From: Alphaproteobacteria bacterium
GTDB taxonomy: Bacteria > Pseudomonadota > Alphaproteobacteria > TMED109
Assembly: GCA_022825705.1 (NCBI GenBank)
Contig: JAJDWH010000010.1
Coordinates: forward strand, 1 to 64,000
Reading direction: 5' to 3'
DNA length: 64,000 nucleotides
Positions 3,806-41,813 of this stretch are shown here, piece after piece. The translations under genes and the position numbers were made by a program. The notes under the pieces were generated by a model. The model was not told the DNA's origin. It saw only the letters and a list, made by a program, of their open reading frames with translations, and made no database searches. Positions within the stretch are counted from its first letter, which is position 1; each line of letters begins with the position of its first letter.

Positions 3806-3807
3806 CA

Positions 3808-3942
3808 GTCGAAAATACTTTCACTGCAGTCGAAAAGAAACCGATAATGCTACGGCCCGTCGAAATCTATCATACACCCATGCCGTCGAAAATCATTCAC
3901 GAAAATCGAGACAGCATGCAAATCCGTTTCATGGGTCGAAAA
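3808..3942. promoter_or_regulatory. Five copies of GTCGAAA(A) upstream of fic
   Basis: Copies begin at 3808, 3829, 3859, 3885 and 3935. The first lies directly before the fic start codon. All are in the same orientation, spaced 21, 30, 26 and 50 bases apart, in an AT-richer stretch. They could bind a repressor or activator of fic; no regulator is encoded next to them. Confidence 0.4.
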
Positions 3943-4111
3943 ACGCCTGATTGAACTTGTTTACCGTGCTGGCCTGGCAATCACCAATGACGAAGCGGCG
4001 CTCCTGAAGGCGGGAGAATCGGCGGCGCACATTGCTGTCATCGTAGTGGATTTGGGTGTCCGTCAGCGGTACGCCGTACCCCTGTAGATCGTCGCTTCGT
4101 TCATCAAACAG
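3929..4111 (-). pseudogene. Unidentified gene fragment
   Basis: Between a TAG at 4112-4114 and a TGA at 3929-3931 the minus strand stays open for about 60 codons with protein-like composition (for example YGVPLTDTQIHYDDSNVRRR and RLQERRFVIGD). No start codon fits, and I do not recognise the family. It looks like the 3' end of a gene lost by deletion. It overlaps the repeats upstream of fic. Confidence 0.25.
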
Positions 4112-4164
4112 CTACCTCATGCCGCCATGCCGAACTCCCGCCGGACCGCGCCGGCGCCGGCGAA

Positions 4165-4488
4165 TTACGACAGCAGCCGGTAGTACTGTTGTTTGTAGCG
4201 GACCTTGCGGGAGAGCACCTCCGAATCATTGGCCCCGCTCCCGATGAACGGGATCAGATCGCGCGGGCTCAGCTACCCCTGCTCCATGCGGAACTTGATC
4301 GCAGCCACTGGGCTGGGATAGCCCATCGGCTCGTGCTTGCTCTCATAGAGCTCGACGAGGTCGGCCAGAACGTCGAGCTCGTCGAACTCGGGACTGTCAG
4401 GCTCCGCGCCCATCAGCACATCGATCCGCACAAGCGCGGCTTCGTAATCCTCCTCGGTCTGGATCGGCTTGATCGTGCTATTGGCCAT
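4165..4488 (-). pseudogene. higA: HigA-type antitoxin broken by an in-frame stop
   Basis: The first 71 codons (MANSTIKPIQTEEDYEAAL, then DELDVLADLVELYESKH and IKFRMEQG) match the N-terminal part of HigA antitoxins of the COG5499 type. A TAG then interrupts the frame, and the same frame continues with LSPRDLIPFIGSGANDSEVLS, the beginning of the helix-turn-helix. It then degenerates and ends at TAA 4165-4167. The gene is therefore a nonsense mutant with a damaged HTH. Its toxin partner survives only as the C-terminal scrap just upstream. Confidence 0.75.
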
Positions 4489-6683: not shown

Positions 6684-7952
6684 TTACGCCGCCAGCCTTC
6701 GATCCGTTTCACGGGTCGTCGGGGTCGCTGAATGCGAACGCCCCTCGCCGTGCAGCCGCGCCAGTCCCCGACGCCGGATGTTGCGGGCCGCGTTCAGGTC
6801 CGCGTGATCCGCGTGGCCGCAGGCCACGCACTCGAAACTCGCTCGGCTGCGGCGCGAGGCGGCGTCCGCATGGCCGCACACGGCGCAGGTCCGGCTGGTA
6901 TGGGCTGGGTCCACCGCGATCAGCCGCGGCGCCTTGTATGCGAGCATCGTGCGGAGACCGCCCCAGCCCGTCGCCAGGATCCCGCGGTTCAGGCCGGCCT
7001 TCTGCCGGACGTGCCGTCCGGGCGCCACCACCGTGCCCCTCGCCGATGCCGTCATCGCGCGCGTCCGCAACGCCTCGACCACTACCGTGCCCCCGGCCAG
7101 CGACCGGCTCACGTGGTGCTGCCAGTTGCGGCGCCGCTGCGCGATCCGCCGTTGCGTGCGGGCCAGCCGCCGCCGCGTGCGCTCGCGCCGTCGCGAGCCG
7201 CGGCGCTGCCGGGCGAGGCGGCGCTGATACCGCCGGACCCTCGCCTCGAGCCGCCGGCTGTCCGGCGCGTGCACGATGCAGGCGCGGCAGCCGTCGCTGA
7301 CGGCGACCTGGCCGACGTTCATGTCGACGCCGGTGACGGTACCGTCGTCGGGACGCGCGGGCGCCGCGACCGCGTAGCACACGGTGGCCATCCACTTGCC
7401 GTTGACGCGCTTGAGGACGGCCTGCACGGGCTCGGCGTCCGGGTACGGGTTGCCGCCCCGGCGGCGCAGCGCGAGCCAGCCGATCTTCGGAAACCACAGC
7501 TTGCCGTCCCGGATGCGCACATCCTGCGGGATCGTCACGCTGTCGCGGCCGCGGCGCTTGAACCGCGGCCGCCCGGCCTCGCCCCGGAAGAACCGCCGCC
7601 AGGCGTCGGCCTGGTATTTCAGGGTGTAGCGCACCGGAGCGTACGGCATGGCCTGCAGCCAGGGCGTCACCCGGCGCAGTTGCGTGAACGCCTTGCCCAG
7701 CGTGAAGAACGTCGGCGCCGGCGGCTTCGCACCGCACATGCGCGCCATGTCGTAGAGCTGCGCCTGCTGGTCGAGCATCTCGTTCCAGACGAACCGGCAG
7801 GCGCCGGCGACGGCGGCTAGGCGCTGGGCGGTGGCCGGCCGGTCGAACAGCACCCGGTAGACGATCTGGCGGTGCTCCACGCCGTCAGGCGCGTCGGGCT
7901 CGGGCCCACCGGCGCACCGATCGGTCGGTGCGGGCCGCGGCGGATGCTTCAT
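6684..7952 (-). CDS. tnpB: TnpB, RNA-guided nuclease of an IS200/IS605-like element
   Basis: The N-terminal domain (YRVLFDRPATAQRLAAV, CRFVWNEML) matches the helix-turn-helix_16/OrfB region. The RuvC-like core has all three acidic residues: Asp in GVDMNVGQVAV, Glu in GTVVVEAL, and Asp in HADLNAARNI. A zinc ribbon sits between the last two (CAVCGHA and CVACGHA). An Arg-rich bridge region lies between RuvC-I and II. With about 420 residues and no lesions it should be active as a guided nuclease. I chose the ATG at 7950-7952 (MKHPPRPAP); an upstream in-frame start at 8012 lies inside the terminal repeat, and a GTG at 7880 is a shorter option. Confidence 0.85.
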   Translation of the reverse strand: MKHPPRPAPTDRCAGGPEPDAPDGVEHRQIVYRVLFDRPATAQRLAAVAGACRFVWNEMLDQQAQLYDMARMCGAKPPAPTFFTLGKAFTQLRRVTPWLQAMPYAPVRYTLKYQADAWRRFFRGEAGRPRFKRRGRDSVTIPQDVRIRDGKLWFPKIGWLALRRRGGNPYPDAEPVQAVLKRVNGKWMATVCYAVAAPARPDDGTVTGVDMNVGQVAVSDGCRACIVHAPDSRRLEARVRRYQRRLARQRRGSRRRERTRRRLARTQRRIAQRRRNWQHHVSRSLAGGTVVVEALRTRAMTASARGTVVAPGRHVRQKAGLNRGILATGWGGLRTMLAYKAPRLIAVDPAHTSRTCAVCGHADAASRRSRASFECVACGHADHADLNAARNIRRRGLARLHGEGRSHSATPTTRETDRRLAA

Positions 7953-8006
7953 GTGTGTTCTTGTAGCACAAGAACACTGGAGGAACAAATCGGCATGTTC
8001 CTGATC

Positions 8007-8031
8007 TGTCAAGTAATCGATATAAGCCCCA
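8007..8031. repeat. Right terminal inverted repeat of the TnpB element
   Basis: Ends ATATAAGCCCCA and pairs perfectly with 6657-6681. Eleven of its bases (ATATAAGCCCC) also occur at 986-996, where another vapC gene is cut off. Confidence 0.9.
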
Positions 8032-8239
8032 TTACGTTCCTTCGAACCTACTCAAGTACTGCGTCTGGCCCCTGAGCAAAACGTCTTACCAAGAAACAGG
8101 CTTCGGCGAGGACCGCCTCACACGTGTACAAAGGCGGCGTCATCCGGACCCATTGACCGCGTGCCCATCGATGATGCCGGTCGCTTCGGTTCAAGAGAGC
8201 GACCAGTGGTCTGGAATCCATCACAATCGGGCTCGTCAA
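8032..8239 (-). pseudogene. VapC-type PIN toxin truncated by the TnpB element
   Basis: The frame reads VMDSRPLVALLNRSDRHH, LYTCEAVLAEACFLVRRF and GPDAVLE, the first half of a PIN toxin. It meets TAG, continues VRRNVMGLIS in the same frame and runs straight into the terminal repeat. The second half with the last catalytic Asp residues is missing. The start overlaps the antitoxin stop (TTG at 8237-8239; GTG or ATG further in are alternatives). Both the nonsense codon and the element would inactivate it. Confidence 0.75.
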
Positions 8240-8475
8240 CGACCGAAGTTCCGCAAGTGCGCCCGATTGGTGGACAAGTCCTCCGGGCCGGCTACAACCC
8301 CTGCGAGATCGATCGCCTGAGACAGCGCCGACCCGGAGCGGGCGCCATCCTCGGTCTGAAGGTAGGATTCCACGGCATCGCGAATCAGCTTGGACCTGCC
8401 GATGCCGCGACGCCGAGCTGCTTCCTCTAGCCTGATGGCAAGGGCTTCGGGCACCTTCAGCGAGATCGTCTTCAT
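8236..8475 (-). CDS. Ribbon-helix-helix (CopG-type) antitoxin
   Basis: The 79-residue protein starts MKTISLKVPEALAIRLEEAA, continues RRRGIGRSKLIRDAVESYL, and is a typical RHH DNA-binding antitoxin with a C-terminal tail (DLAGVVAGPEDLSTN) of the kind that plugs VapC active sites. It precedes and overlaps the truncated vapC. The antitoxin is intact, the toxin is not, so it is a surviving half of a dead module. Confidence 0.85.
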   Translation of the reverse strand: MKTISLKVPEALAIRLEEAARRRGIGRSKLIRDAVESYLQTEDGARSGSALSQAIDLAGVVAGPEDLSTNRAHLRNFGR

Positions 8476-8731
8476 CGCAGCCTCAAGGTAATACCTTTCG
8501 GACAGAATGATCGTACTTCTACTGAGGATGAACGAGGAAGATTTCCGGGAGGTGGCGCCAACCTCAGCGGCGCGCGAGCCACGCACCGCCTTTGGCAGTG
8601 TCACAACATGCGCTTGACTGGCTGCATCGGGCCGCTGCGAGCCGGCGGCCCGGACCCGATCGTGCCGATCGACGCGAGGAAACTGGGCACGAGGAACGCG
8701 GAGCGCACAATGGCCTGGCAACGGCAAGCCT

Positions 8732-10909
8732 GTGACTGAAACAGCGACCCGTTGCCGAATCGCCGTTGATGTCGGCGGTACCTTCACGGACGTCGCGCTT
8801 GAGCTCGCCGGGGGCGGGATCGTCACCGCCAAGGTGCTGACCACCCCGAGCGTCCCGGAAGAGGGCGTGGTCGCGGCCGTCCGTCAGGCCATCGCCGAGG
8901 CTGGCGTGGAACCGGCCGCGGTCGGCCTGGTCATTCACGGCACGACACTTGCCACCAACGCCCTGATCGAGCGGACCGGTGCCAGGACGGCGCTCATCGT
9001 GACCGAGGGCTTCCGGGACTCGGTCGAGATGGCGCTTGAGAATCGCTTCGAGCAGTACGACATTTCCATCGACCGGCCGGCCCCGCTCGTGCCTCGCCAT
9101 CTGCGCTGGCCGGTCACCGAGCGGATGAATCACGCGGGCCACGTCCTGGTTCCCCTCGACGAGCAGTCCGTGCACGCCCTGTTGCCCCGGTTCGAGCGCC
9201 ACGCGATCGAGGCGGTCGCCGTCGGGCTGCTCCATTCCTACGCGAATCCCGCCCACGAGCGACAGGTCGGAGCGATTCTCCGCGACGTCCTGCCGGACCT
9301 CCGCGTCACGCTCTCGAGCGAGGTGTGCCCCGAGATCCGCGAGTACGAGCGCCAGTCGACGGCCTGCGCCAACGCGTACGTCCAGCCGCGAATGTCCAGC
9401 TATCTCGGGCGCCTCGATGCCGCCCTTCGCGGTCTCGGCCTGGGGTGCCCGTTGCTGCTCATGACTTCGGGCGGCGGGCTCACCACCCTCGAGATCGCGT
9501 CCCGTTTTCCGATCCGGCTGGTCGAGTCCGGTCCGGCGGGCGGGGCGATCCTCGCCGCCGAGATCGCGCGCGAGTGCGGCTGCGAGAACGCGCTGTCCTT
9601 CGACATGGGCGGGACGACCGCCAAGCTTGCCCTCATCGATGGGTTCGAGCCGCAGACGACACGCACGTTCGAGGTTGCCCGCGCCTACCGCAACTTGAAG
9701 GGCAGCGGCCTGCCGGTCCGCATTCCCGCCATCGAAATGGTGGAGATCGGTGCGGGCGGGGGCTCCATCGCGGGAGTCGACGCGATGGGTCGGCTGAACG
9801 TTGGGCCGGCCAGTGCGGGAGCCGACCCGGGGCCCGCCTGCTACGACCGTGGTGGCGAGCGCCCGACGGTAACCGATGCCGACGTCGTGCTCGGGCGTAT
9901 CGATCCGGCGGACTTCGCGGGCGGCTCGTTGCAACTGGTCCCGGAACGCGCGGCCGACTCGATTCGGGGCGCCGTCGGACGGCCGCTCGAGCTGACGGAC
10001 CCGGTTGCGGCGCTGTCCATTTCGGAAGTCGTCGACGAGAACATGGCCAACGCGGCCCGGGTCCATGCCGTCGAATGGGGGAAGGACGTCTCCGCCCGGA
10101 CGATGATCGCGTTCGGCGGCGCGGCGCCGCTGCATGCAGCGCGACTCGCCCAGAAGCTAGACGTCGATCGCGTCATCGTGCCGACCGGTGCGGGGGTCGG
10201 ATCAGCGATCGGCATGCTCCGGGCCGCGGTGTCGTACGAGGTGGTCCGCAGCCGCTACATGCGTCTCACCGAGTTCGATCCCGGCCCGGCCAACGCACTG
10301 CTCGGAGAGATGCAGGCGGAGGCGCGAGCGGTCGTGTTGGCCGGAGCCGGAGCGGATGCGGAGCTCGAGGAAACCCGGCACGCCTACATGCGCTACGTGG
10401 GTCAGGGACACGAGATCGTGGTGCCGCTTGCCAGCCGCACCCTGGTGGACGCCGACCGTGAGACCCTGGCCGACGCCTTCGACACCGAGTACTCGCGCCT
10501 CTTCAGCCGGACTCTCCCCGATCAGGAACGCGAGGTGCTGAGCTGGACGCTCACCGTTACCGCTCGAAGGGATTCTTCGATTCCGTTCGCGGCGAAGGGC
10601 GGCACCCTCCCGTCGCCGACAGCGGTCAGTGTCGGATCGCCGGTCCTGCAGCCGGCGGGAGGTCAGCGACCGGCGGCGGCGCCAGGCCGACAGCTCTTTG
10701 ACGAGATCCGCGCCGACTACGTGACGGCGACGGCGTATCGCCGCGACGAGCTCGCCCTGGACAGTGTAGTCGCCGGCCCGGCGGTCATCGTCGAGGAGCA
10801 GACGACCACGGTGGTGCCGGACGGATTTCAGGTCGTCGTCAATTCCCTCGGCTACCTGATTCTTGAGCGGCGGGATCCGCAGACGGTGGGTCAGCCTGGG
10901 GCAAGCTAA
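8732..10909 (+). CDS. hyuA: Hydantoinase/oxoprolinase subunit A (HyuA-like)
   Basis: The 725-residue protein is a full-length member of the N-methylhydantoinase A / 5-oxoprolinase family, which uses ATP to open cyclic amides. The actin-like ATPase core shows IAVDVGGTFTDVALEL at the start, IHGTTLATNALIERTGA, the central SFDMGGTTAKLALI, and the late FGGAAPLHAARLA. It starts with GTG 8732. Its usual partner, subunit B, lies 1.1 kb downstream on the same strand, the two now separated by an antisense FitAB module. Substrate cannot be predicted; hydantoins, 5-oxoproline and related lactams are all possible. Confidence 0.92.
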   Translation: MTETATRCRIAVDVGGTFTDVALELAGGGIVTAKVLTTPSVPEEGVVAAVRQAIAEAGVEPAAVGLVIHGTTLATNALIERTGARTALIVTEGFRDSVEMALENRFEQYDISIDRPAPLVPRHLRWPVTERMNHAGHVLVPLDEQSVHALLPRFERHAIEAVAVGLLHSYANPAHERQVGAILRDVLPDLRVTLSSEVCPEIREYERQSTACANAYVQPRMSSYLGRLDAALRGLGLGCPLLLMTSGGGLTTLEIASRFPIRLVESGPAGGAILAAEIARECGCENALSFDMGGTTAKLALIDGFEPQTTRTFEVARAYRNLKGSGLPVRIPAIEMVEIGAGGGSIAGVDAMGRLNVGPASAGADPGPACYDRGGERPTVTDADVVLGRIDPADFAGGSLQLVPERAADSIRGAVGRPLELTDPVAALSISEVVDENMANAARVHAVEWGKDVSARTMIAFGGAAPLHAARLAQKLDVDRVIVPTGAGVGSAIGMLRAAVSYEVVRSRYMRLTEFDPGPANALLGEMQAEARAVVLAGAGADAELEETRHAYMRYVGQGHEIVVPLASRTLVDADRETLADAFDTEYSRLFSRTLPDQEREVLSWTLTVTARRDSSIPFAAKGGTLPSPTAVSVGSPVLQPAGGQRPAAAPGRQLFDEIRADYVTATAYRRDELALDSVVAGPAVIVEEQTTTVVPDGFQVVVNSLGYLILERRDPQTVGQPGAS

Positions 10910-12024: not shown

Positions 12025-13764
12025 ATGCGCGAAGTGACCACGCTCGACCGGATTCGGATGCAGATCCAGTGGAACCGGCTCCTGTCGGTGGTCGAGGAGC
12101 AGGCCCAGGCCTTAGTCCGCACTGCCTTCAGCACGTCCGCGCGCGAAGCGGGCGACATCTCCGCCGGAGCCTTCGACACCTCCGGACGCATGCTTGCGCA
12201 GGCCGTCACCGGCACGCCTGGGCACGTGAACGCGATGGCCGCGTCGGTGAAGAGTTTCCTGGCGAAGTATCCGCTCGAAATGATGGAGGAAGGGGACGTC
12301 TTCCTCACCAACGACCCCTGGCTCGGCACCGGGCACCTCAACGACTTCACGGCGGTCACCCCGACGTTCCGCGGCGGCCGCATCGTGGCCCTGTTTGCCG
12401 CCACGACCCACGTGGCCGACATCGGCGGCCGCGGCTTCGGACCGGACGGACGCCAGGTCTACGAAGAGGGCCTGAACGTCCCGATCCTGCCGCTCGCGAA
12501 GCGGGGAGAGTTCAATGCGCTCGTGCTGGAGATCGTGCGCGCGAACGTCCGCAATCCCGTCGAGGTCGAAGGCGATCTCTATTCGCTTGCAGCCTGCAAC
12601 GAGGTCGGCGGACGCCGTCTCGTGGGCATGATGGACGAGTTCGGCCTTGACGATCTGGAGGACCTGTCCCGGTACATCATCGACACGTCGCACGAAGGCA
12701 TGCTGACCGAGATTCGCGCCCTTCCGCACGGTACGTACCGCAACGCGATGCGAATCGACGGGTACGAACGGGAACTGGATCTCGTCGCCGCGGTCACCAT
12801 CGACGATACCGGCCTGTCGGTCAGCTTCGACGGGACCTCGCCGGTATCGAGCTACGGCATCAACGTGCCGATCACGTATACCGAGGCCTACGCGAGCTTC
12901 GGGGCGCGGTGCGTGATCGGCTCGCGCATCCCGAACAACGCCGGCTCCCTCGCGGCCATCCGGGTGACCGCTCCCGAGGGGTCCATCCTCAATGCGCCGC
13001 CCCCGTGCGCGGTGACCGCGCGCCACGTGATCGGCCAGATGCTGCCCGACGTCATGCTCGGGTGCCTCGGCCAGGTGATCCCCGACCAGGTGCCGGCTGA
13101 AGGCACGTCCTGTCTGTGGAACCCGGTCTTTCTCGGCGGGCACGGCATGACCGGGGACGATCTGCAGAGTGGCCCGACCTTCGCCATGAACACGTTCCAT
13201 GCGGGCGGGACGGGGGCCCGTCCCGGCAAGGACGGCCTCGATGCGACCGCCTTTCCCTCCGGCGTGCGCAACACGCCGATCGAGGTGAACGAGACGATCG
13301 CCCCGCTCGTGTTCTGGCGGAAGGAATACCGCGAGGATTCGGGCGGCGCCGGCACGTACCGCGGCGGTACGGGCCAGATCATGGAAGTCGGCTATGCCGG
13401 TGATCGCGCATTCGCGATCAACACGATGTTCGACCGGGTGATTCATCCGCCGCGAGGCCGGAACGGGGGACAGCCAGGTCAGGTGGGACGCATCTATCTC
13501 AAGTCCGGCGCGGCAGAATTCAAGGGAAAGGGTCGGCAGACGATCCCGCGCGGCGAGCACCTCGTGCTCGAGATGCCGGGCGGTGGCGGACTCGGCGATC
13601 CGCTTGATCGCGACCCGGAGCGCGTGGCCGAGGACGTGCGGAACGGGTTCGTGTCGATCGAACGTGCGCGGGTCGACTACGGCGTCATTCTGGATCCACG
13701 CCACGGGCTCGATCGCGTCCGCACGCGGAACGAGCGCAATGCCCGACGAGCCAGGGACCACTGA
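12025..13764 (+). CDS. hyuB: Hydantoinase/oxoprolinase subunit B (HyuB-like)
   Basis: The 579-residue protein is a complete HyuB: FSTSAREAGDISAGAFD near the start, PGHVNAMAASVKSFL, DVFLTNDPWLGTGHLNDF (conserved metal-site region), THVADIGGRG and the C-terminal GGGGLGDPLDRDPERVAEDV. With HyuA it forms the ATP-dependent cyclic-amide hydrolase. The ATG at 12025 has GGAGGAG six bases upstream; in-frame starts further up lack this. In HyuA-HyuB operons the two genes normally touch, so the 1.1-kb gap with an antisense TA module is a secondary change. Confidence 0.92.
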   Translation: MREVTTLDRIRMQIQWNRLLSVVEEQAQALVRTAFSTSAREAGDISAGAFDTSGRMLAQAVTGTPGHVNAMAASVKSFLAKYPLEMMEEGDVFLTNDPWLGTGHLNDFTAVTPTFRGGRIVALFAATTHVADIGGRGFGPDGRQVYEEGLNVPILPLAKRGEFNALVLEIVRANVRNPVEVEGDLYSLAACNEVGGRRLVGMMDEFGLDDLEDLSRYIIDTSHEGMLTEIRALPHGTYRNAMRIDGYERELDLVAAVTIDDTGLSVSFDGTSPVSSYGINVPITYTEAYASFGARCVIGSRIPNNAGSLAAIRVTAPEGSILNAPPPCAVTARHVIGQMLPDVMLGCLGQVIPDQVPAEGTSCLWNPVFLGGHGMTGDDLQSGPTFAMNTFHAGGTGARPGKDGLDATAFPSGVRNTPIEVNETIAPLVFWRKEYREDSGGAGTYRGGTGQIMEVGYAGDRAFAINTMFDRVIHPPRGRNGGQPGQVGRIYLKSGAAEFKGKGRQTIPRGEHLVLEMPGGGGLGDPLDRDPERVAEDVRNGFVSIERARVDYGVILDPRHGLDRVRTRNERNARRARDH

Positions 13765-13784
13765 CGCCGACCATTCGGTGTCCG

Positions 13785-13968
13785 CTAAACCGCCTGTTCG
13801 TGGAGATACCCGCGGCATTCGAGCATGCGAGTGGGGCCACGGGATGAGACAACCGGATTCCTGCGGCCTCCGCCGGGCGGCCGTCTTGCGGAGCAGCGCC
13901 TTGAGGTCGGCGAATTGCCGCTCGATCGAGTTGAGGCTGTCCGCGGGCCCATGCTGGACGAGAGCGCA
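13785..13968 (-). pseudogene. Remnant of an IS630-type transposase
   Basis: One minus-strand frame reads HGPADSLNSIERQFADLKA and LLRKTAARR, matching the region around the last catalytic Glu of IS630 transposases (LNPIE.. LKALLRKAA). A different frame then carries the final stretch (RMLECRGYLHEQAV) before TAG, so a frameshift separates them. Everything upstream of this is gone. Confidence 0.5.
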
Positions 13969-14283
13969 ATCGTGGGAAATCGACCGTCTGACCCCGCCAA
14001 CGCCCGACAACGGTATGATCCATCGTTTTCGCGGCGCGGTGGCAATCCGGCTGCGCGGCAATGTCCGAAGCGGACCAATCGGCGGGAGGGCGGTCGGCCA
14101 TGAGACTGGCCAGAGTCGACAGTGGTCATCGGATGCGGGCGTGCACGCCGACAGCTGCGCGCGTGGAGTGCGGTTGATCGGGTGGCGTGCGCGGATCGGC
14201 GACGGGATCGAATGCCGCGGTTTCGGCCCGGACCTGCCCCGTACCCGGCCGCACGCACCCTTTTATGAAAGTAGTAAGCGATC

Positions 14284-17040
14284 ATGACGAACGTTCCTGA
14301 CGATTCGACAGTCTTCCGGACCTCGACGGATGGTCCCGGCGCCTCCGTCATGGGGGCACGAGGGTCCGTGGCCGTAACTCGTCGCGGCTCCTTCTGGGGA
14401 AGGCCCATCGGAACCAGCGCCCAAGCGTTGCCTGCCGCAGCCTTGACGCTCATGGTGTTTGGCCTGTTCGTGCTGGCCGGCGTCACGTCCGGCGCGCAGA
14501 CGGCCCTGGCGCAGGAAGGCTGCCAGCTCACTCCCGGTGTCACGCCCCCTCCAGAGCCGACCGTGACCGCGCAGGACGTGGAAGACGGCAGCGCCACCCT
14601 GATGGAGTTCGCGCTGGCCGCGAGGGCGGAGTTCAAGAGCAGGGGTTCAGAGACACTGACGTCGGAACAGCTTGCCTTCGCCGGGTGCCGGCTTCGACAG
14701 GAAGGCGGTCCGGCGCGTTCCGGGTCGACGTACCTCGTGACGCTGACCCCCGACGGCCGGGTGTTCCTCCACGCGAAGGACATGTCCCTCTCGGCCGGCA
14801 GCCTGAAGCCGGCGATCTATGCCGGGATTCTTTCGGCGCTCGGTATTCCCCGGGCGGTCCTGGCGGGCCTGGCGTCTCCGGATCCCGCTGCCAGGGGCCG
14901 CGCGCAGTCCATGCTGCTCCAGCAGCTGCGAAGCGAACCGCACGCACCGTTCGACCTGACCAGCGCCGTGGCGGGCGTTCGGCCCGGCATCCCCGGGGCG
15001 AGCGGCTACGCCGGTGCTTATGTCTCGGTCAACACGGAGCAGCCGTTCGTGTTGCTCGCCGGGTTCGATCTCGACGCATCTCATTTGGCGGACGAAGTCG
15101 TCGACTACGGCAGCCCGGCGATCACGGCCCGGGAAGTGGTCGATCGCGAGACGCTGAAGGCATTCGTCACGGAAGCGTTGCGTTTCCTTGTCGGGACCCA
15201 GAGAAACGTGCGCTCCGCGGCGGAAGCCAGGGCGGCACTGGCGAAGGCCAGGCTCGCGCTCAGAGATCCGAGCGGGCCATGGCGGCACGGCTCCGTCTAT
15301 CTCTACGTGCTGGACCGCACCAGCAACGTCATCATGTTTCATGGGGCGTTTCCGAACCGGTTCGAGCTCCGGCCCCTGGTGCCGACCGTCCGCGACGTGG
15401 TGACCGGAAGGCTGGTCCTGCCGCAGGTCCTCGAGGCGGCGAGCAGCAGCCCGGAAGGCGGCTTCGTGGAGTATTTCTGGGACGACCCCTCGGACGACAG
15501 CGACAGGGCCGACATCCCGAAGCTGGGGTATGCGAGAGAGTTCACCCGAACGATCACGACCAGCAGAGGGAACGAAATCAGCACCAACCTCGTCATCGGC
15601 TCGGGCGTCTACCTGAGAGAGCCTGAGACAGCCGCCGCGGACCCGAACGCAGTGGTCGAGGCCATCCTGCCCCAGATGATGCGCGCCATGACCGCGAGCA
15701 CGGTGGATGCCGTGTCCAGCCGCATCGAGCAGGCGACTTCCGAGACCGCGCCGTCCCGGGAACTCAGCCTTGGCGGTACCACCACGCTTCCCGACGCCCT
15801 GCTGGCTAACCGGCATGCGCTGGAGGGCGGCAGCTTCGATCTCGGTCGGCTGCTTGCCGGCTCTTCCTTCACCTTGGCGCTTGACGCGGCGGACACCGGG
15901 AGGGGCGGTCTGGTCGGGAACCTGACGCTCTGGGGAAGCGGCGACTACCGCAACTTCTCAGGCGGCGGGCAGGATGCGCTGGCCTACGACGGCGACGTGT
16001 CGAGCGCCAGCCTCGGGGTCGACACCAAGCTCGGCCCCGACGTGTTGACAGGGGTGTCGGTGGCACGGGCACGAGGGACCGCGGATTACTCGGACTCCAA
16101 TGCCAGCTCGGGCGAACTCACGACGACCGTCACGAGCATCAACCCCTACGTGGGTTGGCAGGCCCCGGGCGGCATGAACCTGTGGGCGACGGTCGGCTAT
16201 GGCTCCGGCGAGGTCGAAGTCGACGACTCGACGGGCACGCAAGTGAGCGACCTCTCGCAGCAGATGGCGGCGGCAGGCGTCAGCGGGCCGCTGGTGGCCA
16301 GCGACGGGCTTATCGCCGGCGGCACCACGAGCCTGAGGTTAAAGGGCGAAACCGCCTTCACACGCGCGGAACTCGACGGGTCCGAGGCCCTTGAGAGCAT
16401 GACGTTGAATGCCAACCGGCACCGGCTGATGCTCGAGGGCTCCCATGTCCAGGACCTTGCCTCGGGTGCCACGCTCACCCCGTCGATCGAGATCGGCGTC
16501 CGGAATGACGGCGGGGACGGTGAGACCGGCACCAGCGTCGAAGCCGGTGGCGGGCTGTACTACGCCGACCAGGCCACCGGGCTTACCGTGGGAGCCCGGG
16601 CCCGGACCTTGCTGACGCATAGCGGCGACTACGAAGAATGGGGCGTAAGCGGTCTGATTCGACTGGACCCGGGCGCGGCCGGCCAGGGGCTCGCGCTCAG
16701 CGTGCGGCCGGCGTGGGGGCAGACCGCCAGCGGCGTGCAACGGTTGTGGCAGACAGGCGTGATCGGCGGGGCGGAACCTGGCGGCGAGGCCAACGGGCGA
16801 CTGGACGCGCGCGTGGGCTACGGGATGGCGTTGTTCAAAGGTCACTTCCTGGGGACACCGGAGGTGGCGCTTGCACTATCCGAGGTCGGCCATGAATGGG
16901 GATTGGGTTGGAGGCTGGGGCTGGCCGGGGGCAAGCCCGTCTCCTTCAACCTCGGCCTCGAGGCGACACGGTGGGAGCCTGCAGACGCCACAACGGCGTC
17001 GGAGAGCCGGATCGGGCTCAGCGCGACCATGCTCTGGTAG
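14284..17040 (+). CDS. Secreted protein with Cache-like sensor region and C-terminal autotransporter barrel
   Basis: The 918-residue protein has an extended signal peptide (hydrophobic core about residues 48-66, likely cut after ALA near 76). A mixed alpha/beta region follows (about 95-445). It contains two stretches resembling Cache sensor modules: SGSTYLVTLTPDGRVFLHAK (146-165) and, later, YLYVLDRTSNVIMFHG with GGFVEYFWDD and PKLGYAREF (339-420). From about 540 to the end there is an autotransporter-type beta-barrel of alternating strands ending in ATMLW, the aromatic C-terminal signal for BAM. Surface display is expected. A ligand-sensing fold on an autotransporter is unusual. A hairpin terminator follows 18 bases after the stop. 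Confidence 0.75.
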   Translation: MTNVPDDSTVFRTSTDGPGASVMGARGSVAVTRRGSFWGRPIGTSAQALPAAALTLMVFGLFVLAGVTSGAQTALAQEGCQLTPGVTPPPEPTVTAQDVEDGSATLMEFALAARAEFKSRGSETLTSEQLAFAGCRLRQEGGPARSGSTYLVTLTPDGRVFLHAKDMSLSAGSLKPAIYAGILSALGIPRAVLAGLASPDPAARGRAQSMLLQQLRSEPHAPFDLTSAVAGVRPGIPGASGYAGAYVSVNTEQPFVLLAGFDLDASHLADEVVDYGSPAITAREVVDRETLKAFVTEALRFLVGTQRNVRSAAEARAALAKARLALRDPSGPWRHGSVYLYVLDRTSNVIMFHGAFPNRFELRPLVPTVRDVVTGRLVLPQVLEAASSSPEGGFVEYFWDDPSDDSDRADIPKLGYAREFTRTITTSRGNEISTNLVIGSGVYLREPETAAADPNAVVEAILPQMMRAMTASTVDAVSSRIEQATSETAPSRELSLGGTTTLPDALLANRHALEGGSFDLGRLLAGSSFTLALDAADTGRGGLVGNLTLWGSGDYRNFSGGGQDALAYDGDVSSASLGVDTKLGPDVLTGVSVARARGTADYSDSNASSGELTTTVTSINPYVGWQAPGGMNLWATVGYGSGEVEVDDSTGTQVSDLSQQMAAAGVSGPLVASDGLIAGGTTSLRLKGETAFTRAELDGSEALESMTLNANRHRLMLEGSHVQDLASGATLTPSIEIGVRNDGGDGETGTSVEAGGGLYYADQATGLTVGARARTLLTHSGDYEEWGVSGLIRLDPGAAGQGLALSVRPAWGQTASGVQRLWQTGVIGGAEPGGEANGRLDARVGYGMALFKGHFLGTPEVALALSEVGHEWGLGWRLGLAGGKPVSFNLGLEATRWEPADATTASESRIGLSATMLW

Positions 17041-29475: not shown

Positions 29476-30291
29476 CTATCGCACCCGCTGGAGCGCCGTC
29501 CTGGAGAAGTCACGAGCGTCAAGGTCGGTTCCAAACGCGTAATCGGACCAGACCAGCACGGTGCTCTTGCCCGTGAGATGGTTGGTCATCGTGATCCTGC
29601 TGCTCCGCCAGAAACGATCCAGATATTGTGCGTAGTCTTCCATGACCATCGTCTTGAAATGCTCTTCCCGGAGGTCGAAGTACTGGATCTGCATGGAGCG
29701 CAGTTCGTCCTTGTCAAGCCAGACTAGTTGACGGGAGTACCCTGATTCCTCACTCAGCGGAATTCGCTCGAGAACGATGCATTCGAGTTCGCCGCAAGGC
29801 TCATCCCGCAGGTACCGATGCGTGAATTTCTCTACTTCCGCGGCACCGAGATCCTCGTACGAGAACTCGCTGCCCATGAATGAGCCGGATTGATTTGCGG
29901 AGCTGATACGCTTGACCCGTTTCAGTGCGGGAAGATAGAGCCACTGGTCGTCCGGCCCGTCCTTGTGGGCGTGCACGAGAAATGCCGTCCCCCTGACGTC
30001 GCGCGGGCGGTCGAACACGAACACGCTGCGGTCTCCGTCGTCCGAGACCTCCATGACCTTCAGGCGCATCTCGCGATTGCTTTCCTGTCCCCGCTTGGTG
30101 CGCAGGGTCATGGTCATGCTGGAAGTGAAGTTGCCGAAACCCTTTTGCCGCTCGCGGGCCTCGGTTGCGATCCGGAGCCCGGCCTCTTCGGCGGTTTCCG
30201 CCTGCCCGACCGGAGGCTCGGCCGCCCAGGCGAAGATGGCAACCAGGATCCCGAATGACGTCAGGACCGAGCGGGGAAGAGAAGCGTGAAT
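29476..30291 (-). CDS. Outer membrane lipoprotein-sorting protein-like (LolA-fold) periplasmic protein
   Basis: A signal peptide (SVLTSFGILVAIFAWA) precedes a LolA/RseB-like half-barrel of the type found beside RND/MMPL transporters: FTSSMTMTLRTKRGQESNRE, GTAFLVHAHKDGPDDQWLYL, PALKRVKRISSANQSGSFMG and EFSYEDLGAAEVEKFTH. Such proteins carry lipids across the periplasm for the pump. The RND gene lies upstream on the same strand, the two separated by a ParDE module. I place the start at ATT 30289-30291 because AGAAGG lies eight bases upstream and the signal peptide then starts normally. GTG at 30406-30408 would add a 39-residue non-signal-like extension. Confidence 0.75.
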   Translation of the reverse strand: MHASLPRSVLTSFGILVAIFAWAAEPPVGQAETAEEAGLRIATEARERQKGFGNFTSSMTMTLRTKRGQESNREMRLKVMEVSDDGDRSVFVFDRPRDVRGTAFLVHAHKDGPDDQWLYLPALKRVKRISSANQSGSFMGSEFSYEDLGAAEVEKFTHRYLRDEPCGELECIVLERIPLSEESGYSRQLVWLDKDELRSMQIQYFDLREEHFKTMVMEDYAQYLDRFWRSSRITMTNHLTGKSTVLVWSDYAFGTDLDARDFSRTALQRVR

Positions 30292-30505
30292 TACCGTTGC
30301 CTTCTGTCGGTTGCCGTAGCAGCAACAGGGAACATTGGAACTCGACGGAAAGGCCCGAGCAGTGAGCTGATCACATCGACTCCTGAACCTGTTTGAGCAT
30401 GGTAGCACGATTGGGTCTCATATCGAGACGTTGACAGATCCTATGAGGCCCGTTGGGCGGCCTGCGCCACGGTGTCGTTTTGCTCATCTCATCAGGAGGC
30501 TGGAC

Positions 30506-31569: not shown

Positions 31570-33921
31570 CTATTCGATCGACCGCTTCAGCCGTTCCCTG
31601 ATTTGCGCAGTCGTTTCCTTCGTCGCATCGAGCGCCATCAGCAACGGCGGAAGGAACAGGAAGTCCGCCAGCAGGGCAATGATGACGGTGATCCCAACGA
31701 GCAGGCCGAGCGCCTGATTGGTCACCATTCCCGACGCTCCGAACACCATGAATCCCAGCGCGAACACAACCGTCGTCGCCGTCAACGCCTTGCCGACGGC
31801 ACTGAAGGCGGCCTGGACGGACTCGGACGGCAACAGCCCGCGCTTCCTGGCGCCGACATACTTGGTCATGAAGTGGATCGTGTCGTCCACGATGATGCCG
31901 AACGCAATCGCGGTGACGACCGACGCCGCGACGCCGACCTCTCCCACCAGATATCCCCAAAGGCCCATTGCCATGGCGGCCGGCACGAAATTCGGGACCA
32001 GGCTGATCAAGCCGAGCCGCACGCTTCGGAAGACGAAGAGCAGGAGCAGGGACACGATGGCCATTGCCGCGATCGTGCCCCGCAGCATGCCCTCAATGTT
32101 CCGCTGAATTGAATGCGCGCCGACAACGGAAACGCCGGTTGCCTGGGTTTCGAGGTCGGGCGCGTTCTGCTGGAACCAGGCCTGCGTGCGATTGTCCAGG
32201 TCAACCTTTTCTCGGGTGGTGAGGCTCTTGAGCACAACTGTCACGCGCGTCGACGACCGTTCCACGTCGATGAGATTGTTCAGGTCGCGGCCGACCGGCA
32301 GGGAGAACTCGTAGAGCAGCAGGTACTGCGCGGCAAGATCGGAGTCGTCCGGAAGCACGTAGAAGTCGGGATTGTCGCCATGCAGATTCTTGTTCAGGCG
32401 CTTCATGATGTCGGAGATGGCAAAGACGTGGGCAACCTCCGGCTGTGACCGACTCCACTCCGCAAAGGCATCCACCTGCTGGAGATATTCGACATCCGTG
32501 ACGCCGCCTTCCCGCCCGGAGTTGAGCGAGTACTCATACGTTTCCACGCCCGTGAAATTCTCGCTCACAAAATCCGTGGATCGCCGGAACTCGTAACTGT
32601 CGTCGAGTAGCTCCAGCCAGTTCTCCTGCAGCTCAATCCGCGAGATTCCGGCGATCAGTACGACCATCACGGCGGCGACGGACCAAAGCAGGATCGTGCG
32701 GTAGGAAATGACAAACCGCGCCATGCGATCGAAGACGTCTGCTTTCCCCGCAGGCGCAGTCCCGCCACGCATGGGCACAACGGTCAGAAACGCGGGTAGC
32801 AGCGTGACCGAAAAAACGAAGGCAGCCATCGCGCCGAATGCCACCATGTTGCCCATCACACGAAACGGCGGCATTTCCGCGAAGTTGAGGCTGAGAAAGC
32901 CGATTGCGGTCGTCACCGACGTCAGGAGAACGGGCCACACGTTGACCTGCAGCGAATGCATGGCCGCCTGCGGACGGTCCTTGCCCTGGCGCAGGCCCGC
33001 CCGCATCCCCTCGATAATGTGCACGGAATGCGCGACCGTGACCGCCATCAAGACGAACAGTGCCGCGCCGCTCTCGCCGAACAGCTTCAGCCCGACCCAG
33101 CCGGTGAAGCCCAGCGCGGACAGCAAGACCGCGACCAGCATCACGAGAATCGCCAGCATTCCCCATAGCGAGCGCAGCAGAACGATGGCGACGAGCAGCA
33201 TGGTACCGAGCGCGACGGGCGCAAGGACGCCCATGTCATCGTCAATCGCTTGCTTCATGGCGCGGTTGAGGATGAGTTCGCCGGTCATGTGGTAGTCGAT
33301 GGTCGGATACCGCTCTCTCGCTTCGGCGGCAGTACCGTGGAGGAAGTCGGTGACCTCGAACCTTCCCTGCTCTCGGTCTTCGGGGAGCGCAACGCTGACG
33401 ACCAGCCCGGCGACGCGACCGTCCCTGGAAATGAAGCGCCCCGAGACTTCTTCGGTACTGAGCGCAATTTCCCGGATTCGCTCGATATCGCTGTCGCTCA
33501 GGGAACTGGCGTCGTCGATCAGGGGCGCGACGATCAGCTCGTCCTCGAGGCCCTCGCTGTGCGAATAGTTGGTGATCGAGTCAACGCGTGTGACGTAGGG
33601 CGTTCGCCATAGTCGATCGGTCAGCTCTTCGATGGCAACAAGTGTTTCCGGCGTGAAGACGGTACCGCTTTGCGGCGCCACGACCACCAGCGCGGCGTCG
33701 GACAGAGAGTAGGTGGCTTCCATCTCGTCGAGTGCGACGATGTGCGGGTCGTCCTGGCTGAAGTGATTTCGAACGTCGACGTCGACGACCGTGATGAATT
33801 GGGCGCCCGCAGCGAGGGCCAGCATTGCAACCAGGGAGAGCACGATCGTCAGCCACCGGCGACCGACGATGAGGGCAATGCAGGAATCGAGTGTCATGAC
33901 AAGATGATCGACCGGGTGCAA
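31570..33921 (-). CDS. RND/MMPL-family transporter
   Basis: The 783-residue protein has the duplicated RND plan. There is one TM near residue 25, a periplasmic loop, a five-helix block (APVALGTMLLVAIVLLRSLW, VAHSVHIIEGMRAGLRQGK), then a second TM, loop and block ending FLFLPPLLMALDATKE. The helix blocks resemble sterol-sensing-domain-type (MMPL/HpnN/Patched-like) transporters of lipids and hopanoids. With the LolA-like protein downstream it could move a hydrophobic lipid, here possibly a sterol, between membranes. The polarity (import or export) cannot be read from sequence. ATG 33897 (MTLDSCIALI) is an alternative start. Confidence 0.88.
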   Translation of the reverse strand: MHPVDHLVMTLDSCIALIVGRRWLTIVLSLVAMLALAAGAQFITVVDVDVRNHFSQDDPHIVALDEMEATYSLSDAALVVVAPQSGTVFTPETLVAIEELTDRLWRTPYVTRVDSITNYSHSEGLEDELIVAPLIDDASSLSDSDIERIREIALSTEEVSGRFISRDGRVAGLVVSVALPEDREQGRFEVTDFLHGTAAEARERYPTIDYHMTGELILNRAMKQAIDDDMGVLAPVALGTMLLVAIVLLRSLWGMLAILVMLVAVLLSALGFTGWVGLKLFGESGAALFVLMAVTVAHSVHIIEGMRAGLRQGKDRPQAAMHSLQVNVWPVLLTSVTTAIGFLSLNFAEMPPFRVMGNMVAFGAMAAFVFSVTLLPAFLTVVPMRGGTAPAGKADVFDRMARFVISYRTILLWSVAAVMVVLIAGISRIELQENWLELLDDSYEFRRSTDFVSENFTGVETYEYSLNSGREGGVTDVEYLQQVDAFAEWSRSQPEVAHVFAISDIMKRLNKNLHGDNPDFYVLPDDSDLAAQYLLLYEFSLPVGRDLNNLIDVERSSTRVTVVLKSLTTREKVDLDNRTQAWFQQNAPDLETQATGVSVVGAHSIQRNIEGMLRGTIAAMAIVSLLLLFVFRSVRLGLISLVPNFVPAAMAMGLWGYLVGEVGVAASVVTAIAFGIIVDDTIHFMTKYVGARKRGLLPSESVQAAFSAVGKALTATTVVFALGFMVFGASGMVTNQALGLLVGITVIIALLADFLFLPPLLMALDATKETTAQIRERLKRSIE

Positions 33922-35905: not shown

Positions 35906-35919
35906 AATTGTGCCCAGAA

Positions 35920-35958: not shown

Positions 35959-37992
35959 GTGACTCACGACACAGCTGTTGAAACGGGCCAGGGGGCGTCT
36001 GCGCTAAGTCTGCCGGAAGAGCTGCTGCTGGTGCTGCTGGACGAAGAGAGGGGTTATTTTCGACAGGTACCCGGCTGGAACCTGAACTGCGCGATGGTCG
36101 GCGCAGCGCTCGGTGAACTTTCGCTGCTCGGTCGCATCGACACCGATCTGGAGTCTCTGACTCTCCTGGATGCGACCGCCACCGGTCGTCCGCTGCTCGA
36201 CCCGATCTTGCGGGAGATCGCGACCGAAACGGAAACACACGATGCCCGCTACTGGATTGAGCGGCTTGCTCCACAGTCCGAGTCGGTGATCTCCCAGGCG
36301 CTGGACGGGCTCGTTCGGCGACAGATTCTCGACGTCCACCCGGGCGGTTTCTATACCTTCGCCAGGCGCCAGCGGCCGGGCGAAACACCGTCGGGAGAAG
36401 ACCACCTGGCGGCCGAGTTCGTGACGGCCCAGTTGGCCAGGGTCATCTTTACGGACGAGCTTCCGGGTCCGCGCGACGTGATTATCACCGGCCTCGTCAA
36501 TGCCTGCCACGTGTTCCATCTGATGTATCAGATCGACGAGGAAGTGGAAGAACGGATTCGGTTCGTCAGCCAGATGGACCTGATTGGCCAGGCGATTGCG
36601 GCAGCGGTGAGCCAGAGCATCCTCGCGCCCGCGCTTCGCCGGCCCTCGCTGACCAAGCCGATTCCGACCGTGTCCCTGCGTGATCTGGTGTTCAACCGCG
36701 AGCTGCGGGAGGGCAGGCTGCCGGCAGGGTTTGCCTATTTGGCCGACAGGTACGGTCCAGTATTCGAGCTTCCGATCCCGTTCCGCCAGAACGTGATTGT
36801 CCTGGCGGGGTTGAAGACGAATGAATGGGCCCATCGCATGGGGCGGGTGTTCTTGCGGTCGAAGGAGTACTTCGAGGGCGTCGACAAGGCGTACGGCGTG
36901 TCGCGCTCGATGCACTCGATTGACGGCGCCGATCACTTCCGCTTTCGCAAGTCGTTGCATACCGCCTACTCTCGCAGGACTTTGACCAGGCGTCTGGACG
37001 AGGTCTATGAACTGGCCCGCGCGCACATGGCGGGTTGGGACGTCGGTACCACGATGCCGGTGCAGGAGATGCTGCGGCCATTCGTGAACGCGCAGACGTC
37101 GCCGCTCTTGGCCAACATTGACACCCAAGCCGAGATTGTCGACGCGCTCGAATACAAGGTTCGGGTGCTCAATGTGGGCATCGTCAAGATGATGCCGCGT
37201 TTCATGCTCAAGACCCCGTCGATGCGCCGCCGGGCGAAGGCCATGGACCAGATCGTCGACCGCATGCAAAGGACGCATACGGCCGCGCAGCGGGTTGGGA
37301 TGCACGAGGACGTGGTGGACGCGTACCTGGCCCTGCACGCGTCTGATCCCCAATTCCTGCCTGAATCGGACCTGTCGCTGCCGCTAGGGGCGATCTTGAT
37401 GACCGCCATGTACATGGGCGACCAGGTTGGCTTCGCCCTTTACTGGTTGCTGCAGAATCCCGAGCTGTACGAGCGGGTCACGGCTGAGGCGGATGCGTTG
37501 TGGGCCGAGGGCGATCCCGGCGAGGACGACTTCAGTCGAGACCGGATCGACGTGACCCACCGGGTGCTGATGGAGGCTCTGCGGATGTCGCCGATCGTGC
37601 CCATGTCGATGCGCACGGTGATGAATACCTGCGTGGTGGAGGGTTACGAATTACCGGTCGGGGCGCAGCTCCTGATTGCGCAGACGGCCACGCATTACTC
37701 GGAAGAGGCGTTTCCCGACCCGTGGAAGTTCGACATTGACCGCTACGCGCCCCCGCGAAACGAGCACCTGGGCAGAGGCTATGCGCCCTACGGGTTGGGC
37801 ACGCACTCATGTCTCGGGAGCCGGTGGGCCGACTTGCACATTGTGATCAACCTGCTGATGCTCACGCATTACTTCAAGATCGAGCTGGCCCGCCCCTACA
37901 AGCGGTTGCCGATGGATCCGTTGCCCTCGCAGTCGCCCAGCAACAGACTTAAGCTCAGGATCGCTGAGCAGCGGCACGAAATCGGAGTCTGA
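35959..37992 (+). CDS. GPP34 (GOLPH3-like) domain fused to a cytochrome P450
   Basis: The 677-residue protein is a two-domain fusion. Residues 15-215 match the Golgi phosphoprotein 3 (GPP34) fold: LSLPEELLLVLLDEERGYF, CAMVGAALGELSLLGRID, DATATGRPLLDPILREIA and a late PRDVIITGLVNACHVFHLM. Eukaryotic members bind phosphoinositide membranes. From about 255 onward it is a P450 with ExxR in MEALRMSP (539-542), PDPWKFDIDRY, and the heme loop YGLGTHSCLG with Cys618. The usual AGxxT of helix I is not obvious (MYMGDQVG). The GPP34 part may anchor the enzyme to membrane lipid. Start GTG 35959 or TTG 35956. A sterol substrate is inferred from neighbours. Confidence 0.85.
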   Translation: MTHDTAVETGQGASALSLPEELLLVLLDEERGYFRQVPGWNLNCAMVGAALGELSLLGRIDTDLESLTLLDATATGRPLLDPILREIATETETHDARYWIERLAPQSESVISQALDGLVRRQILDVHPGGFYTFARRQRPGETPSGEDHLAAEFVTAQLARVIFTDELPGPRDVIITGLVNACHVFHLMYQIDEEVEERIRFVSQMDLIGQAIAAAVSQSILAPALRRPSLTKPIPTVSLRDLVFNRELREGRLPAGFAYLADRYGPVFELPIPFRQNVIVLAGLKTNEWAHRMGRVFLRSKEYFEGVDKAYGVSRSMHSIDGADHFRFRKSLHTAYSRRTLTRRLDEVYELARAHMAGWDVGTTMPVQEMLRPFVNAQTSPLLANIDTQAEIVDALEYKVRVLNVGIVKMMPRFMLKTPSMRRRAKAMDQIVDRMQRTHTAAQRVGMHEDVVDAYLALHASDPQFLPESDLSLPLGAILMTAMYMGDQVGFALYWLLQNPELYERVTAEADALWAEGDPGEDDFSRDRIDVTHRVLMEALRMSPIVPMSMRTVMNTCVVEGYELPVGAQLLIAQTATHYSEEAFPDPWKFDIDRYAPPRNEHLGRGYAPYGLGTHSCLGSRWADLHIVINLLMLTHYFKIELARPYKRLPMDPLPSQSPSNRLKLRIAEQRHEIGV

Positions 37993-40817: not shown

Positions 40818-41813
40818 GTGCGGGTGATCACGGGAGCGAGCGGCCATATCGGCGGTGTGCTCGCCCGAGCGCTGGCCGACCGGGGTGACCCTCGTCAGGT
40901 CCGCGCGATCTACCGCGATCGGAAAGGCACGGCAGCCGATCTCGACATTGAGTGGGTCGGTGGCGACATTCTCGACCAGGAATCGCTGGTCGCCGCGTTC
41001 TCGGGGGCTGAAACCGTCTACCACCTGGCCGCCGTGGTGTCGATCGACCCCGGCCGGGCCAAGGATGTCCATACGACGAACGTGTCGGGCACGCGCAACG
41101 TCGTCGAGGCAGCCCTGCGATGCGGCGTGCGGCGGCTTGTGCATGTTTCCTCGATTCACGCCTTCAACCAGTACCCGCTCGACGAAGTGCTCGACGAGAG
41201 TCGCGGTCCCGCCGACGGTTCGCGGCACGACGCCTACGACCGGTCGAAAGCGGCCGGCGAAAAGGAGATTCGCAGCGGCATAGATCGCGGCCTCGATGCC
41301 GTGATCCTCAACCCGACCGCCGTGATCGGCCCCTTCGACGCCGTGCCCTCGTACATGGGACACGTGTTCCTCGATCTGCACCGGAGACGAATTCCCGCGC
41401 AGGTTGCGGGCGGCTTCGACTGGGTGGATGTGCGCGATGTGGTCGACGCCACGGTGGCCGCGGAGACGAAGGCGAGATGCGGCGAGAACTACCTCCTGTC
41501 AGGTGGCTGGGATTCCGTGCGCAACCTGGCGCTCCTGTCCGAGCAGGCGACCGGGGTGCCGGTGTCGCGTTTCGTGGTCCCCGTGTTTGTAGCCCGGCTC
41601 TGGGCGCCATTTCAGGTCATGTTGGACCGTAGTCAGGGGCGCCGGCCGCTCTATACGCCGGCTGCGGTACGCGTGATGAGCAACGGCAATCGCCGGATAT
41701 CCAACGCCAAGGCACGGGCGGAACTGGGGTTCAAGCCGCGTCCCTTGGCAGATTCCGTAAGGGATACCTATCGTTGGTTCGACGAGCAAGGCATGCTCGG
41801 CGAAGCTGGTTGA
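40818..41813 (+). CDS. NAD(P)-dependent 3beta-hydroxysteroid dehydrogenase-like protein (extended SDR)
   Basis: The 331-residue protein has the Rossmann motif TGASGHIGG (5-13), the DxxD-type site GGDILDQ, AAVVSI, a Ser at 111-112 and the catalytic YDRSK (Tyr140, Lys144). The overall pattern, with VDVRDVVDATVAA and a late SNGNRRISNAKARAELGFKP, is that of the 3beta-HSD/ERG26/SdmB-like extended SDR group. Dihydroflavonol-reductase-like functions cannot be excluded. It should oxidise the 3beta-hydroxyl of a sterol to the ketone. One base separates it from the 5alpha-reductase-like gene, so the two form an operon. GTG start. Confidence 0.82.
   Translation: MRVITGASGHIGGVLARALADRGDPRQVRAIYRDRKGTAADLDIEWVGGDILDQESLVAAFSGAETVYHLAAVVSIDPGRAKDVHTTNVSGTRNVVEAALRCGVRRLVHVSSIHAFNQYPLDEVLDESRGPADGSRHDAYDRSKAAGEKEIRSGIDRGLDAVILNPTAVIGPFDAVPSYMGHVFLDLHRRRIPAQVAGGFDWVDVRDVVDATVAAETKARCGENYLLSGGWDSVRNLALLSEQATGVPVSRFVVPVFVARLWAPFQVMLDRSQGRRPLYTPAAVRVMSNGNRRISNAKARAELGFKPRPLADSVRDTYRWFDEQGMLGEAG

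Follow-up and report, generated by a model that had tools for sequence, protein, structure and literature searches.

A GPP34-cytochrome P450 fusion gene in the sterol-type gene neighbourhood of an alphaproteobacterium and its relatives

Introduction

In eukaryotes, the GPP34 protein (GOLPH3, Vps74) is a Golgi adaptor and oncoprotein, and R90, R171 and R174 of GOLPH3 are the arginines that bind PI4P. The bacterial members of the family are little understood. A 2025 paper on SCO4440 of Streptomyces coelicolor, which links this protein to peptidoglycan changes, termed GOLPH3-like proteins previously undescribed in prokaryotes (PMC12402492). The original prediction for the DNA analysed here had described bacterial GPP34 proteins as mainly stand-alone and of unknown role; this was nearly right. 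Sterol gene clusters of sponge symbionts, found across phyla, contain ERG24, CYP51, cyclase, sterol C24-methyltransferase (SMT) and sdmA/B-type genes (PMC9531527, PMC10070321), and the main text of PMC9531527 makes no mention of GPP34. Nothing relevant came up in a literature search that combined GPP34 with cytochrome P450.

Here we describe a gene joining these two domains, located in the window (the whole stretch of 64,000 nucleotides that was analysed) of an alphaproteobacterial genome, and its relatives in other bacteria. The reading that we favour, with a probability of roughly 0.6, is that in these sponge-associated bacteria it encodes a sterol (or related triterpenoid) P450 whose partner is a KshA-type Rieske oxygenase and whose docking module is GPP34. 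The presence of the fusion in sterol clusters offers a concrete, testable function for a bacterial GPP34 domain.

The fusion gene and its surroundings in the window

The frame of the fusion gene (Table 1) has a possible alternative start, an in-frame TTG at 35908, upstream of the GTG. Its product matches two Pfam families far above their cut-offs: PF05719 with 101.7 bits (cut-off 29.1), covering positions 1-199 of the 201 of the profile, and PF00067, at residues 392-653, with 104.5 bits (cut-off 22.8). The P450 half is complete, since residues 241-646, in a profile of five fusions, align with essentially whole solved CYP51 chains. No transmembrane segment is predicted in the protein (maximum 19-residue hydropathy 1.54). 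The original prediction of a single frame joining GPP34 to a complete P450, for which a domain search had been proposed and which would fall with an N-terminus lacking PF05719 or with a frameshift between two genes, was thereby confirmed: both domains were matched, the N-terminal one over residues 18-218, and further fusions were found in relatives. A sequencing error or frameshift joining two genes is ruled out by the recurrence of the same fused frame in five other genomes of the genus and in 80 loci.

Table 1. Features of the fusion gene and its neighbours in the window
Feature	Position	Strand	Evidence
LolA-like outer-membrane lipoprotein-sorting homologue	29476..30408	-	PF17131 E 3e-59
MMPL/RND-type transporter, weak sterol-sensing-domain similarity	31570..33921	-	PF03176 E 2e-37, PF12349 E 8e-4
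KshA-like Rieske oxygenase, 348 aa	34645..35691	+	PF19298 E 3e-25, PF00355; solved KshA structures E 1e-24
GPP34-cytochrome P450 fusion gene, 677 aa	35959..37992	+	Open frame from GTG start to stop
GPP34 (GOLPH3/Vps74-like) domain, residues 18-218	36010..36612	+	PF05719 E 7.4e-29; genome search 36010-36612
Recombination boundary in orthologues of other lineages, residues 215-219	36601..36615	+	Maximum chi-square and tree conflict
Cytochrome P450 domain, about residues 241-677	36679..37989	+	PF00067 E 7.6e-30; CYP51-clan structure match over 241-646
I-helix Y485-M-G-D488 replacing acid-alcohol (D/E-T) pair	37411..37422	+	Y485, D488 invariant in 49 sequences
Heme-ligand loop PYGLGTHSCLG; C618 ligand, H616 invariant	37780..37818	+	Alignments
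ERG2/sigma-1-receptor-like sterol isomerase homologue, 207 aa	38515..39138	+	PF04622 E 2e-59
3-beta-HSD-like SDR	40818..41813	+	Nearest models SdmB (216.6 bits) and HpnA (204.6 bits), both below cut-off
Steroid 5-alpha-reductase-like membrane protein, 253 aa	41815..42576	+	PF02544 E 7e-52

The LolA-like gene is probably paired with the MMPL gene. The Rieske protein scores 38.1 bits with SdmA and the SDR 216.6 bits with SdmB, against NCBIfam equivalog cut-offs of 600 for each, and the pair does not qualify as an SdmA/SdmB C-4 demethylase. Genes for squalene epoxidase, cyclase, SMT and ERG24 are all absent from the vicinity of the window's own fusion copy. Its genome (G000), which holds two P450s only, gave no match to PF13243 (cyclase) or PF01222 (ERG24), and the combination of cyclase, CYP51 and ERG24 in one genome, by which sponge-symbiont sterol clusters were recognized, was not found there; as the genome is 93.6% complete, the absence of cyclase and ERG24 is likely, not certain. 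An ERG2-type homologue stands in this genome with no detectable cyclase; L074 was the only one of the 80 relatives to show it.

Recurrence, spread and selection

In the five other genomes of the genus, the fusion is present with identities of 90-100%, about 52%, 42% and 32%, some genomes having paralogues. The 80 loci, found in one scan of species genomes (52-100% identity, nearly all covering most of the query), are labelled as about nine phyla: Alpha-/Gammaproteobacteria, Gemmatimonadota, Latescibacterota, Chloroflexota, Acidobacteriota, Acidimicrobiia, Nitrospirota, Rhodothermota and Binatia. Two of the loci are on megabase-sized contigs (L069, 2.9 Mb; L071, 2.5 Mb). The bin prefixes RHO, IRC and COS fit sponge species sampled in PMC8163846; the MAGs carrying the fusion are apparently mostly sponge-derived, and that all of them are is something we infer. 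In all comparisons that could be made, dN was lower than dS in the GPP34 half, the P450 half and the linker. Low dS values against loci labelled as other phyla (about 0.2-0.3 for L052 and L056) suggest a recent transfer, although the labels of bins can be wrong. Taken together, the sequence comparisons indicate that the fusion is genuine, conserved and mobile.

GPP34 matches above the cut-off were found in 9 of the 398 genomes of a Pseudomonadota sample, including the window's own, outside of which all matches were in frames of 223-297 aa. In an Actinomycetota sample, GPP34 occurred in 35 of 296 genomes; P450-bearing frames were found in G081, the genome of the sponge-type locus L108, and those other long GPP34 frames that were examined contained no P450. 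Stand-alone-sized GPP34 copies co-occur in most fusion-carrying genomes. A GPP34 frame of 1432 aa (L186) was rejected because it proved spurious, the actual GPP34 gene beneath it being short. The P450-fused GPP34s form one group in the tree (21 sampled; one change, support 92/93), and those fused to a cytochrome b form a separate group.

Exchange of the P450 half and other GPP34 fusions

Six genes (L061, L064, L066, L068, L070 and L071) share about 81-97% nucleotide identity with the window's fusion gene in the P450 half and about 46-74% in the GPP34 half. Their breakpoints fall at residues of about 192-237, most at 211-229, with maximum chi-square values of 122-180 (0 of 2000 shuffles as extreme). 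The trees conflict as well: for L061, the GPP34 half groups with L105 of the same labelled phylum (100/99), and the P450 half lies in clade I (100/98). An additional recombinant, L082, is weakly supported. Judged from these alignments and trees, the P450 half of the six genes was swapped between lineages, the junction coinciding, or nearly so, with the GPP34 boundary. The P450 half is exchanged while GPP34 remains that of the host lineage. This is most simply read as a need for GPP34 to match the host cell, and it looks like a host-matched docking module.

The window's genus encodes two further kinds of GPP34 fusion: (i) to a Rieske [2Fe-2S] ferredoxin domain (L037:5729-6673) and (ii) to a membrane domain whose four invariant histidines form two H-x13-H pairs, the pattern of di-heme b cytochromes; in L034 the gene of this second kind (8308-9483) precedes one for a multiheme cytochrome c (6817-8295). 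Fusions to a ferredoxin and a predicted di-heme cytochrome b favour a role in docking or assembly. In the window's own genome, a GPP34-cytochrome-b-like gene is split over two frames (L036:9409-9903 and 9654-10607), a possible frameshift or pseudogene.

From these fusions one may also read GPP34 as chiefly a protein-protein docking or self-assembly domain, gathering P450, Rieske ferredoxin and di-heme cytochrome b into one electron-transfer complex. Eukaryotic Vps74 forms oligomers, and the cytochrome c gene directly after the four-histidine gene, like the retention of the GPP34 half with the host lineage, would suit such a complex. However, the redox fusions were found mainly in the window's genus, with one further genome (L193), and many genomes have, besides the P450 fusion, only stand-alone-sized GPP34; we consider this reading possible but rather doubtful.

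The P450 half

In an alignment of 49 sequences, C618, H616, E539/R542 (ExxR), H326/R330 (C-helix HxxxR), Y485 and D488 are invariant. The cysteine heme loop, ExxR, HxxxR and the PF00067 match place the protein in the cytochrome P450 superfamily, but the acid-alcohol pair typical of monooxygenases is lacking, with tyrosine at the threonine position and the acid absent. Of the 89 distinct fusion sequences, 83 have Y-[LMG]-G-D in the I-helix; the few variants are YLAD and GLDT, the latter kept in L028, L185 and L187. In L044 (8349-10688), a P450 with the same Tyr-type I-helix is joined to cyclic-nucleotide-binding domains (two stretches).

The closest solved relatives of the fusion P450 profile are CYP51s. 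Neither of the CYP51 signatures, AGxHT (I-helix) and PxFGxxV (B'-helix), was found in 107 fusion ORFs (89 distinct), whereas the cyclase loci contain separate P450s that carry AGQHT and PxFGxxV, and both signatures are present in eight CYP51s from loci of this kind. The fusion P450 is hence ruled out as a CYP51; the canonical CYP51s sit separately beside cyclases.

The conservation of Y485/D488 and of the heme and ExxR residues argues that the fusion P450 is functional, and the replacement of the acid-alcohol pair by Tyr/Asp may point to non-oxygenase chemistry. The loss of this pair in nearly all fusions could alternatively mean that the P450 half is degenerate, either non-catalytic or a non-oxygenase (isomerase-like, or a sterol-binding accessory), but such decay is unlikely in view of the invariant residues and of dN/dS below 1 in this half, and active P450s without the I-helix threonine exist.

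The GPP34 half

GOLPH3 and Vps74 were retrieved by a profile of 16 bacterial GPP34 sequences (E about 1e-19 and 1e-16), whereas a PDB search with a single GPP34 sequence gave no match. V47, E108 and I111 align with the GOLPH3 residues R90, R171 and R174 in this profile alignment, which compares sequence, not structure, and the domain is acidic (pI 4.6; 16 K+R versus 32 D+E). The domain thus belongs to the GPP34/GOLPH3 family by its whole-domain profile match but does not keep the PI4P-binding arginines. A role as PI4P reader is unsupported, and the original suggestion that the P450 is recruited to lipids by analogy with PI4P binding is likewise not supported; the domain may dock peripherally at the membrane by another mechanism, or to a protein partner. 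That GPP34 reads an anionic or PI4P-like lipid and recruits the P450 straight to membrane lipids, as GOLPH3 and Vps74 bind PI4P, would agree with the clear homology, with the membrane-embedded substrate expected of a sterol P450 and with a protein devoid of transmembrane segments, but the replaced arginines and the low pI render it improbable, and to our knowledge PI4P is not a usual bacterial lipid.

Gene neighbourhood in relatives

Among the fusion loci, a sterol-sensing MMPL was found in 34, SMT in 29, an FAD amine-oxidase-like protein in 27 and ERG4/24 in 10. Neighbours were also counted in the 48 loci with 8 kb on both sides of the fusion (16 of clade I and 32 of clade II), and a KshA-type Rieske gene lies near the fusion in 39 of these. 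SDR and 5-alpha-reductase homologues occur in 14 of the 16 clade-I loci and, at an identity of at least 40%, in none of the 32 clade-II loci, of which 24 have an MMPL gene. The KshA_C Rieske gene is single-copy in all 13 genomes searched outside the genus, lying within about 6 kb of the fusion in 10 and at about 13.5 kb in an eleventh.

L188 has an unbroken row of squalene epoxidase gene, cyclase gene, fusion and a frame of 826 aa, the size of an MMPL, and L189 has the same gene order, with an epoxidase and a cyclase match. In G001, a single epoxidase-cyclase ORF lies near a GPP34-P450 in locus L026; this ORF (12167-15577) comprises squalene epoxidase and oxidosqualene-cyclase-like domains in 1136 aa, and long cyclase frames resembling it were seen in several other genomes. 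In another locus of G001, L028, a cyclase and a separate squalene epoxidase lie near a GPP34-P450 paralogue, beside which L028 also carries an ecdysteroid-kinase-like phosphotransferase gene (3019-4278). Several relatives have a cyclase, with G005 combining cyclase, CYP51 and ERG24, and several fusion-bearing genomes gave no cyclase match; the fusion therefore occurs both in sterol-making clusters and, apparently, in settings with an external supply of sterols.

The neighbouring Rieske, SDR, 5-alpha-reductase, SMT, epoxidase and cyclase genes are strong evidence for a sterol or triterpenoid substrate, which the original prediction had thought attractive, and the sterol context of the fusion is well supported. 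The P450 might instead act on a non-sterol (hopanoid-like) triterpenoid or other lipid, its neighbours sharing only family names with sterol enzymes: the cyclase beside the L028 paralogue scores like a squalene-hopene cyclase, which makes such a substrate possible for some paralogues, the SDR of the window matches HpnA nearly as well as SdmB, and the window's genome has no cyclase match. As a general reading this is improbable because relatives of ERG2, SMT, ERG4/24, CYP51, squalene epoxidase and 5-alpha-reductase recur in the clusters.

Proposed role of the fusion

According to the preferred reading, a sterol P450 docked by GPP34, the P450 would act in sterol (or closely related triterpenoid) metabolism beside the KshA-type Rieske oxygenase, and in the window's clade the 3-beta-HSD-like SDR and the 5-alpha-reductase-like protein would work with it. 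The N-terminal GPP34 domain would take the place of the transmembrane anchor found in membrane-bound P450s, most likely holding the enzyme close to the sterol pool and the transporter, either at the inner face of the membrane or on a partner specific to the host. As the window's genome has no detectable oxidosqualene cyclase, its P450 probably acts on sterols from the host or other symbionts. A broader proposal is distinctly tentative: bacterial GPP34 might serve generally as a host-matched docking module for redox enzymes whose substrates are membrane sterols, and the fused P450 might be a new sterol-active class, with Tyr/Asp replacing the acid-alcohol pair and chemistry beyond that of CYP51 and known sterol hydroxylases.

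The fusion hints that the membrane-adaptor role of GPP34 predates or parallels that at the Golgi. It would also mark a conserved extra step, presumably an oxidation, in the sterol metabolism of sponge symbionts. This is relevant to the dispute over where sponge sterols, which serve as fossil biomarkers, come from.

Comparison with known systems

The N-terminal domain, fully covered by the PF05719 profile, is of the same family as GOLPH3 and Vps74, from which it differs in its acidity, its replaced PI4P-site arginines and the attached P450. It is the same domain as that of SCO4440, which has no fused enzyme (PMC12402492), whereas the GPP34 of the fusion is tied to sterol-type oxidation. Bacterial CYP51s (for example PDB 6mi0/6mcw) share sterol clusters with the fusion P450 but, unlike it, carry AGxHT and PxFGxxV and are encoded separately in the same kind of genomes. 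The partner Rieske protein, encoded next to the P450, has the KshA_C domain of the KshA/SdmA/Neverland-type oxygenases and lies far below the cut-off of the SdmA model. Relative to the sponge-symbiont sterol clusters described so far (PMC9531527, PMC10070321), the fusion is an additional component.
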